Position numbers and translations under genes: made by a program | Assembly: GCF_026586625.1 (NCBI RefSeq) | Contig: NZ_JAODIW010000010.1 | Coordinates: forward strand, 186,001-250,000 | Reading direction: 5' to 3' | Length of the DNA stretch: 64,000 nucleotides | DNA from: Halobium salinum | GTDB lineage: Archaea; Halobacteriota; Halobacteria; Halobacteriales; Haloferacaceae | In this document: in pieces, positions 37,446 to 41,554 of the stretch | Position numbering within the stretch: position 1 is the first letter of the stretch | How the letters are laid out: the number at the start of each line of letters is the position of its first letter | Notes under the pieces: model-generated | What the model was told of the DNA's origin: nothing | Database searches by the model: none | Seen by the model: only the letters and a program-made list of their open reading frames with translations

Positions 37446-38163
37446 CGTCTGTGGTGGGTGTGGTCTGTGGGGTGGTCTGCTGTTCGGTCGCCGAACTGTT
37501 CGCCGCCGCCTCGTGGCCGGGGTCCTCGTCCGGCGTCGTCGGCGTGTCGCCGCGGGCGAGCGCCGTCTGGCCCGTCCGGGCGATCTCGATGATGCCGAAC
37601 TGCCGGAACGCGTCGACCGCGTCGTCGATCTTCTGCTGGTCGCCGGTTATCTGCACCGTAATCGTTCTGGGCCCGGCGTCCAGGGTCTGGCCCTCGTACA
37701 TCTGCGTGATGGCGTGGACCTTGTCCGGTTCGTCGCCCCGCACCTTGAGGAGGACGAGCTCCGCGCGGACGGCGTCGTTCCCGAGTTCGCCGACCGCGAT
37801 GGCGGGCTTGAGCTTCGCCAACTGCTTCTTCACTTGGTCGATGCCGGCGTCGGTCTCCTCGACCACGAGCGTGATGCGCGCGTGGCCGTCCACGGTGGTC
37901 GGGCCGACGGTAAGGCTCTCGATGTTGAACTGCCGTCGGGAGAACAGCCCCGAGACGCGCGACAGCACGCCGGGTTCGTTCTCGACCAGCGCCGAGATGA
38001 CGGCGCTTCGCTTTCGTGGCTCGGCCTCGACCTCGGGGTCGATGCGCACGCCGTGAGAGTTGCGCCGCCCCTCTGGGTGCGGGCGCTCCTCGGGACGCGG
38101 GCCTTTCAGGCCCTGCTTCGGCAGGTCGCCGTTGTCGGTCGGCTCCTCGGAGTCGCCGCTCAT
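37438..38163 (-). CDS. ilvN: Acetolactate synthase, small (regulatory) subunit
   Basis: ACT-domain subunit giving branched-chain feedback control to IlvB. The domain is at about residues 52-130: [37 protein letters not shown] and [26 protein letters not shown] second regulatory part contains [13 protein letters not shown] and [32 protein letters not shown]. Both termini carry haloarchaeal low-complexity extensions (about 50 acidic/charged residues before, a Thr/Gln tail after). The ATG overlaps the ilvB stop (ATGA). Confidence 0.93.
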
Positions 38164-39980
38164 AGCTGGTCCTCCGTCAGAGCGAACTTGCCGTTCGCAC
38201 CGCCGCTCGGCACCATCGGGTAGACGTTGGCCCCGGGGTCGACGTGGAAGTCGATAACCGAGGGGCCGTCGTAGGCCAGTGCCTCTTCGACCGCGTCGGC
38301 GACCTCGTCGTAGTCGTCGACGGTCCAGCCCTTTGCGCCGAACGCCTCCGCCAGTTTGTCGAACTGGGGACACCAGTCGTAGCCGGCGGCCATCCGCCGG
38401 CCCTCGAAGAATGCGTCCTGCCACTGGCGGACCATCCCGATGTACTCGTTGTTGAGCACCGCGACGGTGATGTCGAGTTCCTCGCGGACGGCCACGGAGA
38501 GCTCCTGGAGCGTCATCAGGAACGAGCCGTCGCCGTCGACGCAGACGACCTGCTGGTCGTCGTCGGCCGCGAGGCGAGCACCGATGGCGGCCGGGAGGCC
38601 GTACCCCATCGTGCCGAGCCCGTGACTGGACACCCACGTACGCGGGCTGGTGTAGGTCCAGTACTGGGCGGCCCACATCTGGTGCTGGCCGACGCCCGTG
38701 GTGACGATGGTGTCGTCGGCCGTCGCCGCGTCCAGCGCCTCGACGACGAACTGCGGCTTCAGCGGCTCGTCGTCGGGGGTGGCGTAGTCCATCGGGTACT
38801 CGTCCTTCCACGTCGCGCACTGCTCGCGCCACGCCGCCGTGTCGGGGGAGGACCCGACCGCCTCGCTCAGCTGTTCGAACACCGTGCCCGCGTCGCCGAC
38901 GAGCGGGTAGTCCGCGTACACGTTCTTCGAGATTTCGGCCGGGTCGATGTCGGCGTGGACGACCTCCGCCTCGGGGGCGAAGGTGTCGACGCCGCCGGTG
39001 AGGCGGTCGTCGAAGCGGGTGCCGACCGCGACGAGCAGGTCCGTGTGGGTAATCGCCATGTTGGCGTAGCCGGTGCCGTGCATCCCGGCCCACGACAGCG
39101 AGAGGTCGTGGTCTTCCGGGAACGCGCCGATGGCCGGCATCGTCGTCACGACCGGGACGCCGTGTTCGACGGCGAACTCGCGGGCGGCCTCACAGGCGTT
39201 CCCCTTCACGACGCCGCCGCCGAGGAGGAGGACGGGCCGTTCGGCCGCCTCGAAGGCTCGTGCCGCGGCCTCGACGTCGGCCTCGTCGGCCTCGTCGGCC
39301 GGCGAGTAGGTGTCGGGGAGGCGGCCCTCGCCGGGTTCACGCTCGGTCTCGCCGAGGGTCGTGTCCTTCGGCAGGTCGACCAGCGTCGGCCCGGGACGGC
39401 CGGCGCCGGCCAGCGACAGCGCCTCGCCGACGGTGTCGCCGACGGTGTCCGCGTCGCCCGCGAAGTAGTTGTGTTTCGTGATGGGGGTCGTGACGCCCAT
39501 CGTGTCCGTCTCCTGGAACGCGTCGGAGCCGACCATGTGCGACGGGACCTGCCCCGTCAGCGCGAGCACCGCGTCCGAGTCCATGTTGGCGTCGGCGATG
39601 CCCGTCACGAGGTTGGTGGCGCCGGGGCCCGAGGTGGCGAGGCAGACGCCCGGCTCGCCTTTCACGACCCCGTAGGCGTCGGCCGCGTGGGCCGCCCCTT
39701 GTTCGTGGGCCATCGTGACGTGGCGCACGTCGGCGTCGTACAGCGCGTCGTAGACGGGCATGATGGCGCCGCCCTGCACGCCGAAGGCGGTCTCGACGCC
39801 GGCGTTCTCCAGTGCGCGGACGACGGACTGCGCGCCCGTGGTGACGGGCGCCCGGTCGGCGCCGTCGTCGGGCTGTTCGTCGCTCGGTTCCGCCGACATG
39901 TCGCGCTCGGCGCCGTCCGCCGGCGGGTCGTCGGGGTTCTCTTCTGCTCGGTCGGCTTTCGGTGTCGCGGGTTCGCTCAT
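38160..39980 (-). CDS. ilvB: Acetolactate synthase, large subunit
   Basis: ThDP/FAD enzyme making acetolactate and acetohydroxybutyrate, 606 residues. Seen are the catalytic Glu in MAHEQGAAHAADAYG, CLATSGPGATNLVTGIADANMDSDAV, FQETDTMGVTTPITKHNY, the FAD domain with VGTRFDDRLTGG, and the ThDP motif CVDGDGSFLMTLQELSVAVREELDITVAVLNNEYIGMV. The first roughly 45 residues are an acidic leader. No TATA box lies near its ATG; transcription most likely begins at the leader-peptide promoter at 40200-40210, leaving a transcript of about 200 nt before this start codon. Confidence 0.95.
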   Translation of the reverse strand: MSEPATPKADRAEENPDDPPADGAERDMSAEPSDEQPDDGADRAPVTTGAQSVVRALENAGVETAFGVQGGAIMPVYDALYDADVRHVTMAHEQGAAHAADAYGVVKGEPGVCLATSGPGATNLVTGIADANMDSDAVLALTGQVPSHMVGSDAFQETDTMGVTTPITKHNYFAGDADTVGDTVGEALSLAGAGRPGPTLVDLPKDTTLGETEREPGEGRLPDTYSPADEADEADVEAAARAFEAAERPVLLLGGGVVKGNACEAAREFAVEHGVPVVTTMPAIGAFPEDHDLSLSWAGMHGTGYANMAITHTDLLVAVGTRFDDRLTGGVDTFAPEAEVVHADIDPAEISKNVYADYPLVGDAGTVFEQLSEAVGSSPDTAAWREQCATWKDEYPMDYATPDDEPLKPQFVVEALDAATADDTIVTTGVGQHQMWAAQYWTYTSPRTWVSSHGLGTMGYGLPAAIGARLAADDDQQVVCVDGDGSFLMTLQELSVAVREELDITVAVLNNEYIGMVRQWQDAFFEGRRMAAGYDWCPQFDKLAEAFGAKGWTVDDYDEVADAVEEALAYDGPSVIDFHVDPGANVYPMVPSGGANGKFALTEDQL

Positions 39981-40085
39981 GCTGGTGCTGGGTGGTCGGT
40001 CGACGAGTCGGTCGAGTCGCTGGCCGGCCGGGTCGCGAACCGGTCGGCGAACGGTGCGGAGACGGGTACGGAAGGTGGGGTGATG

Positions 40086-40101
40086 GGGGCTAGGCAGCCC
40101 C
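40086..40101 (-). promoter_or_regulatory. Hairpin enclosing the leader-peptide stop codon
   Basis: GGGGCT / AGCCCC stem (minus strand 40101-40096 with 40091-40086), loop GCCT. The TAG of the leader peptide (40092-40090) spans loop and 3' arm, so a ribosome at the stop would open the stem, while one held at the Val codons (40128-40120) would not cover it. Directly after comes a C-rich, G-poor stretch (about 40089-40050) without ORF. How this acts on transcription is not shown by sequence. Confidence 0.55.
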
Positions 40102-40176
40102 TACGATAATGAGCGAACGGACGACGACCGCGTCGCTCTCGGCGGGCGAACGCCGGGCGACTGTGGGTCGCGTCAT
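40090..40176 (-). CDS. Putative branched-chain leader peptide of the ilvB operon
   Basis: A 28-residue ORF starting MTRPTVARRSPAESD and ending AVVVRSLIIVGAA then TAG. Its run of Val, Leu and Ile codons (GTC GTC GTC, CTC ATT ATC GTA) at positions 17-25 sits just before the stop. The arrangement is like the E. coli ilvB leader, which I recall as having a VVVV-R-VVVVV run. The ATG lies about 30 nt after a TATA box, so the mRNA would start near 40178 and be leaderless. ilvB begins 109 nt after the stop. The antisense frame is unremarkable. Function as an attenuator is inference. Confidence 0.7.
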   Translation of the reverse strand: MTRPTVARRSPAESDAVVVRSLIIVGAA

Positions 40177-40199
40177 CGTATCTGGGCCGAGTACGTGGT

Positions 40200-40210
40200 G
40201 GATAATAACT
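40200..40210 (-). promoter_or_regulatory. TATA box of the ilv leader / ilvB operon
   Basis: AGTTATTATCC on the minus strand, centred about 30 nt before the leader-peptide ATG (40176) and about 225 nt before ilvB. It is the only TATA-like sequence between leuA and ilvB, which argues that the leader is transcribed with the operon. Confidence 0.65.
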
Positions 40211-40332
40211 CTGTCGCGGGGTGCAAGCTCTGCCCCGGTCACTCGCTACCGGGGCGGAACGAGTCCCACAACGACGGCCCCGACGTTTCAGCCGCCGCTC
40301 CGTGTGCGGGGTGAACGAAGGGGTCGCCATCG

Positions 40333-41554
<1,222 letters not shown>

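Follow-up and report, generated by a model that had tools for sequence, protein, structure and literature searches.

The window analysed here is a stretch of 64,000 nt from the haloarchaeon Halobium salinum, and on its minus strand a leader element lies between leuA and ilvB. The gene at 38160-39980 is taken to be ilvB from family knowledge, and the genes after it in the operon are presumed on the same basis to be ilvN, ilvC, leuC, leuD and leuB. The features of the locus are the following, all on the minus strand and each with its basis in brackets.

40202-40208, minus: TATA-like box TTATTAT, ~32 nt 5' of the leader ATG (sequence and A+T profile)
40090-40176, minus: leader ORF of 28 amino acids, MTRPTVARRSPAESDAVVVRSLIIVGAA, ATG at 40176, TAG at 40092-40090 (sequence; homologues upstream of ilvB)
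40102-40110, minus: putative control codons ATT ATC GTA, Ile-Ile-Val (residue and codon statistics)
40086-40101, minus: hairpin GGGGCT-GCCT-AGCCCC (sequence, folding, stop position, pair counts)
40070-40089, minus: G-free C/U-rich tract of 20 nt (composition, length of G-free run)
40072-40073, minus: UU at +12/+13 after the 3' arm, within the predicted pause or termination zone 40073-40066 (T enrichment, weak hybrid)
39981-40089, minus: untranslated interval of 109 nt from the leader stop to ilvB (sequence and ORF list)
38160-39980, minus: ilvB, acetolactate synthase large subunit, ATG at 39980, the gene predicted to be regulated (ORF)

The stem alone is weak in the window, where the 121-nt region is not unusually stable against shuffles (z -0.53); the 206-nt leader is stable (z -2.16). 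The question was therefore put to the relatives of the locus, and comparison of their sequences carries the case for the leader, its promoter spacing and codon choice, the hairpin, the tract, the distance of the UU and the absence of other structure. Homologues of ilvB were found in 137 of 146 genomes. A homologous leader of the same design lies upstream of ilvB in 109 of 110 loci, 80 of them from a tblastn-confirmed scan and 30 from a genome search; the remaining one (L089) was dropped, its contig beginning 57 nt before the match. These loci include near duplicates such as L016 and L045. For composition, folding and UU counts the set was thinned to 77 or 87 sequences sharing no more than 80% identity across 120 nt; codon, stop and stem counts cover 78-121 unthinned sequences.

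A covariance model built from 77 non-redundant leader copies matches 364 of 392 genomes of the haloarchaeal order (333 of the 345 good ones), nearly always once per genome. Among 294 genomes sampled from the phylum, all 48 matches fell inside this order and none outside, and each of the 48, when checked, lay on the ilvB strand 76-320 nt upstream of the gene. The H. salinum genome contains the exact core ATYGTAGGGG...CCCC at a single site. Sixteen extra ilvB loci were also inspected, 13 from genomes with no model match and three second copies: 12 have a divergent leader with a stem and four do not. No leader or hairpin is recognisable before ilvB in L219-L222, deep-branching members of families f9 and f11 whose ilvB is 56-58% identical to that of the window, which suggests that the element arose after the split from these lineages or was lost there.

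The mean A+T content of upstream 6-mers, computed over 87 non-redundant leaders, peaks at 0.82 at position -32 from the ATG. Judged by this TATA spacing, transcription probably yields a leaderless mRNA that begins at or beside the leader AUG. A TATA-like box and the ATG following it, placed without using the reading frame, could be assigned in 75 of the 87 leaders; in 74 of these 75 the promoter-located ATG is in frame with the stop codon of the hairpin and the frame is open. From frame and promoter spacing we infer that the leader is translated. The peptides span 18 to 54 residues. In the survey of the ilvB loci the leader was taken to start at the in-frame ATG closest to the hairpin, and some true starts may lie further up.

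The leader peptide of the window ends in VVVRSLIIVGAA. Across the leaders, Ile, Leu and Val make up 33-89% of the residues at 11 of the last 12 positions and ~10% further upstream; the translated-looking ORF rich in Ile, Val and Leu codons that an earlier note on this DNA had pointed out is indeed kept across haloarchaea. Among the 78 loci with an IVG ending, the Val codon is GUA in all 78, although GUA represents 0.9% of the Val codons in ilvB of the same organisms. The Gly codon is GGG in all of them (18.8% of Gly codons in ilvB) and the Ile codon is AUU in 58 (7.2% of Ile codons in ilvB). Stem pairing alone does not explain GUA because in about one leader in two its GU is not part of the stem, the best stem in the list of arms starting from the A or later; a slowly read codon would account for the choice. 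The AUY-GUA codons abut and overlap the 5' arm of the hairpin. At the locus there is a short ORF whose codons specify the amino acids made by the pathway it would control, and the broader statement that the element is a leader ORF sensing branched-chain amino acids is very probably correct.

The hairpin that the earlier note had placed over the leader stop codon is present and conserved across haloarchaea. In the window its stem pairs GGGGCT (40101-40096) with AGCCCC (40091-40086) around the loop GCCT (40095-40092), so that the T of the TAG lies in the loop and its A and G in the 3' arm. Folding of 77 non-redundant leaders gives a mean z of -2.2 at the hairpin, against ~0 between the stop and +170. 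Of 121 leaders, 110 have the first base of the stop codon in the loop, 10 have the stop after the stem, and in one it is apart from the best stem. This conserved placement supports the suggestion, also made in that note, that the position of the ribosome would open and close the hairpin.

The stem is short, with a median energy of -11 kcal/mol, and its sequence is variable: 31 distinct arm pairs occur in the 121 leaders, with loops of varying length. The arms of the predicted hairpin covary. Among the 77 sequences the loop-adjacent pair is C-G in 47, U-A in 14 and U-G in four; one has a G-C to C-G change; and 16 cells of the alignment are changed on both sides versus 6.2 in shuffles. These pair counts rest on a register chosen from the sequences by the author. 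RNAalifold run on a plain MAFFT alignment placed the helix one column off and gave no compensations, and the structure read from the sequences was used instead. Divergent copies carry the compensated stems GGGCC/GGCCC, GGUGC/GCGCC and GGGGUUC/GAACCCC, the first of them together with the peptide IRVRAAMAH or IRVRAAPAH. In L229 and L231 the GA peptide motif is lost and the Ile and Val codons, hairpin and tract are kept.

The choice of stop codon follows the predicted stem. Leaders ending in IVGAx have UAG before C in 42 of 44 cases, and of the 29 ending in IVGA, 24 have either UAG preceding C or UAA/UGA with a G after it; either option supplies a G pairing with C. A second ilvB copy in genome G050 (L232) has a leader ending in IIAIIAIIGVS with six Ile codons, followed by a GGGG...CCCC stem.

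Downstream of the stop, the 40 nt at 40089-40050 contain by eye count 23 C, 4 G, 8 T and 5 A, the first 20 nt being free of G. On the minus strand of the window, such a G-free 20-mer begins at 16 of 63,980 positions, one of them being 40089; in 80 homologous loci the share of positions is 0.11%, whereas 78 of 121 leaders carry one at the spot after the hairpin. The G-free run from the 3' arm has a median length of 21, versus 3 in shuffles. G frequency is 3-4% in the 20 nt past the stop and returns to ~22% later. The C-rich, G-poor stretch of about 40 nt that the earlier note described is C-rich, as claimed, and conserved in being G-free over about 20 nt; the remainder has a moderate excess of C over G and is not uniformly G-poor. 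The same note saw no ORF after the stop. This is strictly incorrect, a mechanically called ORF of 117 amino acids in another frame (39977-40330, minus strand) spanning the whole leader and promoter and crossing the interval; it shows no sign of being a gene.

Within the tract the strongest U enrichment is at +12/+13 after the 3' arm, with T frequencies of 0.59 and 0.58. Of 81 copies, 43 have their first UU between +10 and +15; in 200 shuffles this number averaged 13.9 and never exceeded 24. Energies of the RNA:DNA hybrid were taken from literature values. By these, the 9-bp hybrid downstream of the hairpin is weakest when its 3' end is at +16 (-10.4 kcal/mol, versus -14.2 for the coding sequence of ilvB); the leader of the window has its weakest hybrid at +18/+19, that is 40067-40066. 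With the 3' end at about +16 the hairpin would just have emerged from the polymerase. A UU 12-13 nt from the hairpin is nearer the geometry of bacterial pauses than that of terminators.

Only one conserved hairpin was detected. A second one, terminator or antiterminator, is absent from the 77 leaders, where mean z stays at ~0 in every window between the stop and +170, and there are thus no mutually exclusive antiterminator and terminator hairpins in this span. Long-range pairing between leader and interval was considered for ilvB and rejected, its mean z over the 77 leaders (0.05) being no better than in shuffles. No hairpin followed by a U-run, hence no intrinsic terminator of that kind before the first gene, is found on the minus strand of 39900-40350, as the earlier note had held in proposing termination that needs no U-tract. 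None of the models of Rfam 15, T-boxes and riboswitches included, matches at E<=1 in 39800-40400 or reaches the gathering score in the window. Without the two alternative hairpins of classical attenuators, the element does not qualify for that class, although it may work like a classical leader-peptide attenuator.

The reading that we favour, with about even confidence, is a leader-peptide attenuator of the ilvB operon acting by direct ribosome occlusion, with pausing or termination at 40073-40066. Transcription would start at or next to the leader AUG and ribosomes would translate the leader co-transcriptionally. When Ile- and Val-tRNA are charged, the ribosome would reach the stop codon and leave, and the stop-codon hairpin would fold at the moment when the polymerase, 12-19 nt further on, occupies the G-free pyrimidine-rich tract with its UU and weak hybrid. 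The polymerase would then pause or terminate at ~40073-40066, with or without help from the factor FttA. If Ile or Val runs low, the ribosome would stall at AUY-GUA, the 5' arm would stay unpaired and the polymerase would read through into ilvB. A ribosome stalled at codons touching the 5' arm would mask it. With AUU or GUA in its A site the ribosome would cover the arm, so the hairpin is expected to form only once the leader has been translated normally and the ribosome released. Since the 5' arm would be covered by a ribosome waiting at the stop as well, release has to be quick compared with the polymerase for this scheme to work.

That the ribosome stalls, that the polymerase pauses or terminates and which way the response goes are deduced here from sequence, and the choice among mechanisms turns on sign and geometry. 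Occlusion yields the expected sign of the response with the parts present; loading of a factor on the interval and reinitiation were weighed for sign as well. The fixed distance of the UU and the weak hybrid are easier to reconcile with a hairpin acting on the polymerase than with a long site for factor loading. In Haloferax volcanii 59% of transcripts stopped in vivo at one hairpin that has no T-stretch, and the part of the study available reports 503 termination sites with a hairpin at most 10 nt away (PMC7237163). These share with the ilvB element, as it is predicted to work, a hairpin upstream of the 3' end, the lack of a T-stretch and partial termination. The one tested is, according to the same part of that study, a different hairpin located in the coding region of HVO_A0420 and not tied to a leader peptide (PMC7237163).

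It is possible, if unlikely, that the untranslated C-rich interval is instead a rut-like loading site for FttA/aCPSF1, with translation of the leader deciding the access of the factor to the polymerase. The G-free tract is conserved, there is no U-run terminator, and C exceeds G (~0.4 versus ~0.2) until about +100 past the stop, unlike in 24 hisG upstream regions (C 0.33-0.36 and G 0.28-0.34 in four of five bins). The factor, named in the earlier note, is also encoded in the genome (TIGR03675, 982.8 bits, G000:C13:280050-281945). However, the sequence is strongly G-free for only ~20 nt with a mild excess of C afterwards, a UU and a hairpin at fixed distance would be superfluous, and the passages of the FttA/aCPSF1 literature that were searched mention no C-rich site. 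A stalled ribosome would moreover leave the C-rich RNA equally exposed, which makes the sign of the response unclear; starvation would therefore not lower termination unless the hairpin is the switch. FttA may assist or complete termination.

Control at the level of translation, with leader and hairpin setting reinitiation at ilvB, ribosome loading or mRNA decay and transcription unaffected, is distinctly improbable. It would be compatible with an unstructured interval, with an ilvB start lying 70 to >200 nt downstream in most loci, and with the lack of a ribosome-binding motif visible on inspection at the ilvB start of the window. Yet folding z-scores of the 77 leaders reveal no conserved structure at the ilvB start, reinitiation after the leader would drop rather than rise under starvation, and the UU and weak hybrid at fixed distance are left unexplained.

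There is little to recommend the view that the inverted repeat is a binding site for a regulatory protein, as DNA operator or RNA hairpin, next to an incidental ORF: the arms GTAGGGG/CCCCTAC are often perfect, but the loop varies in length, the arms change with compensation, the stop codon keeps its place in the loop (110/121) and the ORF its frame (74/75). Least probable of all is a nascent arrest peptide of the type of TnaC, in which the strikingly conserved IVG(A/V) ending directly before the stop would halt the ribosome on the stop codon when it senses an amino acid, since divergent peptides that keep the stem and the branched-chain amino acid codons argue against it (the endings IRVRAAMAH, IRVRAAPAH, AIIGVS, SIIGASY and VFVGAA replace the conserved one and the hairpin persists) and the exclusive use of GUA and GGG for V and G points to a constraint on codons and RNA.

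Leaders of other genes were searched for in 40 genomes per gene. A Phe leader with a GFGFFFA-like ending lies upstream of pheS in 16 of 30 loci by a strict pattern, e.g. L164, L169 (in the H. salinum genome) and L186, with a TATA-like box ~30 nt before its ATG; looser forms in other loci are outside this count. Upstream of the second trpS, 12 of the 15 best-scoring loci of 30 have a Trp leader with W-R-W, mostly followed by GADS. The leader of H. salinum (L192) reads MQSAPWRWRSHASGADSPVAVVAAA, and L191 and L194 are other examples. Base pairing is possible between the GADS codons and a GCTCACTCGCTTTCTC stretch downstream of them, and pairing between leader and interval is strong for trpS (mean z -1.84 over 12) and not for pheS (-0.26 over 16). 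No leader was recognised by eye before hisG and trpB in 24 loci each; W-rich ORFs ~500 nt upstream of trpB in L260, L264 and L265 (family f2) were not counted. For H. volcanii, the accessible part of a start-site study lists uORFs with their own start site, of 26 amino acids before pheS (HVO_2948) and of 23 amino acids before the Trp-tRNA ligase gene HVO_A0127 (PMC4983044). These short ORFs before amino-acid genes, with a start site of their own, fit the Phe and Trp leaders; the list, as far as it was available, gives no regulatory codons, hairpin or mechanism (PMC4983044). The absence of ilvB from the uORF table in the same part of that paper counts against the proposed ilvB attenuator (PMC4983044).

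The gene leuA (41496-40333, minus strand) is overlapped by an out-of-frame ORF at 41554-41480 that starts with MSNN and ends in DRVLRGHISPHY. In 40 of 78 loci (L034-L113), window included, the LeuA frame has no ATG, GTG or TTG before the catalytic motif. The out-of-frame ORF and leuA share a GTTCTT site, whose CTT is present in 76 of the 78 loci. Expression of leuA appears, from the arrangement of the two frames, to need a programmed +1 frameshift at GTT CTT joining them. A first impression that leuA was a leader-peptide case was dropped in favour of the frameshift after reading both frames. The start of leuA2 has been treated as an open problem, with slippage mentioned (PMC8305020).

A wider reading joins these cases: haloarchaea would control their supply of amino acids in a general way that is sensed through translation, by mini-ORFs at ilvB, pheS and the second trpS and by the LeuA +1 frameshift at a conserved CUU codon, with a minimal attenuator at ilvB. 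It is tentative, and we hold it with somewhat less than even confidence. The mini-ORFs would be leaderless and carry cognate codons (Ile-Val, GFGFFFA and WRW...GADS), and the single ilvB hairpin would act on the archaeal polymerase over the G-free tract with neither antiterminator nor U-tract.

In E. coli, ivbL-ilvB and trpL are ribosome-mediated leader-peptide attenuators, and in trpL the first hairpin has the stop codon in its loop. The haloarchaeal element resembles them in having a short leader with codons for the pathway products and a biosynthetic operon downstream, and trpL also in the position of the stop codon. It differs in being archaeal, with a leaderless ORF and a single short hairpin, and no antiterminator or U-run terminator was detected. 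The E. coli pyrBI attenuator is set apart by its complete intrinsic terminator and by its response to UTP, which it senses via the speed of the polymerase; it is similar in that the position of the ribosome directly blocks a hairpin affecting the polymerase. The bacterial ilvB-II, ilvB-OMG and ilvB RNA motifs have a uORF rich in branched-chain amino acid codons upstream of ilvB, as here, of lengths varying by multiples of three according to the part of their description available (PMC10272879). In the same part ilvB-II is a bacterial motif with a P2 terminator stem and uridines (PMC10272879). The haloarchaeal element differs in these respects and has no Rfam match.

This type of ribosome-sensed switch is long known in bacteria. 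No report of an archaeal amino-acid leader-peptide attenuator was found in the open-licence literature searched, outside of which most subscription papers lie. If the interpretation is true, textbook bacterial leader-peptide attenuation would be at work in archaea, with a polymerase and a termination factor closer to the eukaryotic ones. Haloferax, which is genetically tractable, would then provide a single defined and conserved locus at which to test archaeal transcription-translation coupling, and the element would be a natural place to study how transcription is ended by hairpins, U-poor pyrimidine tracts and FttA.
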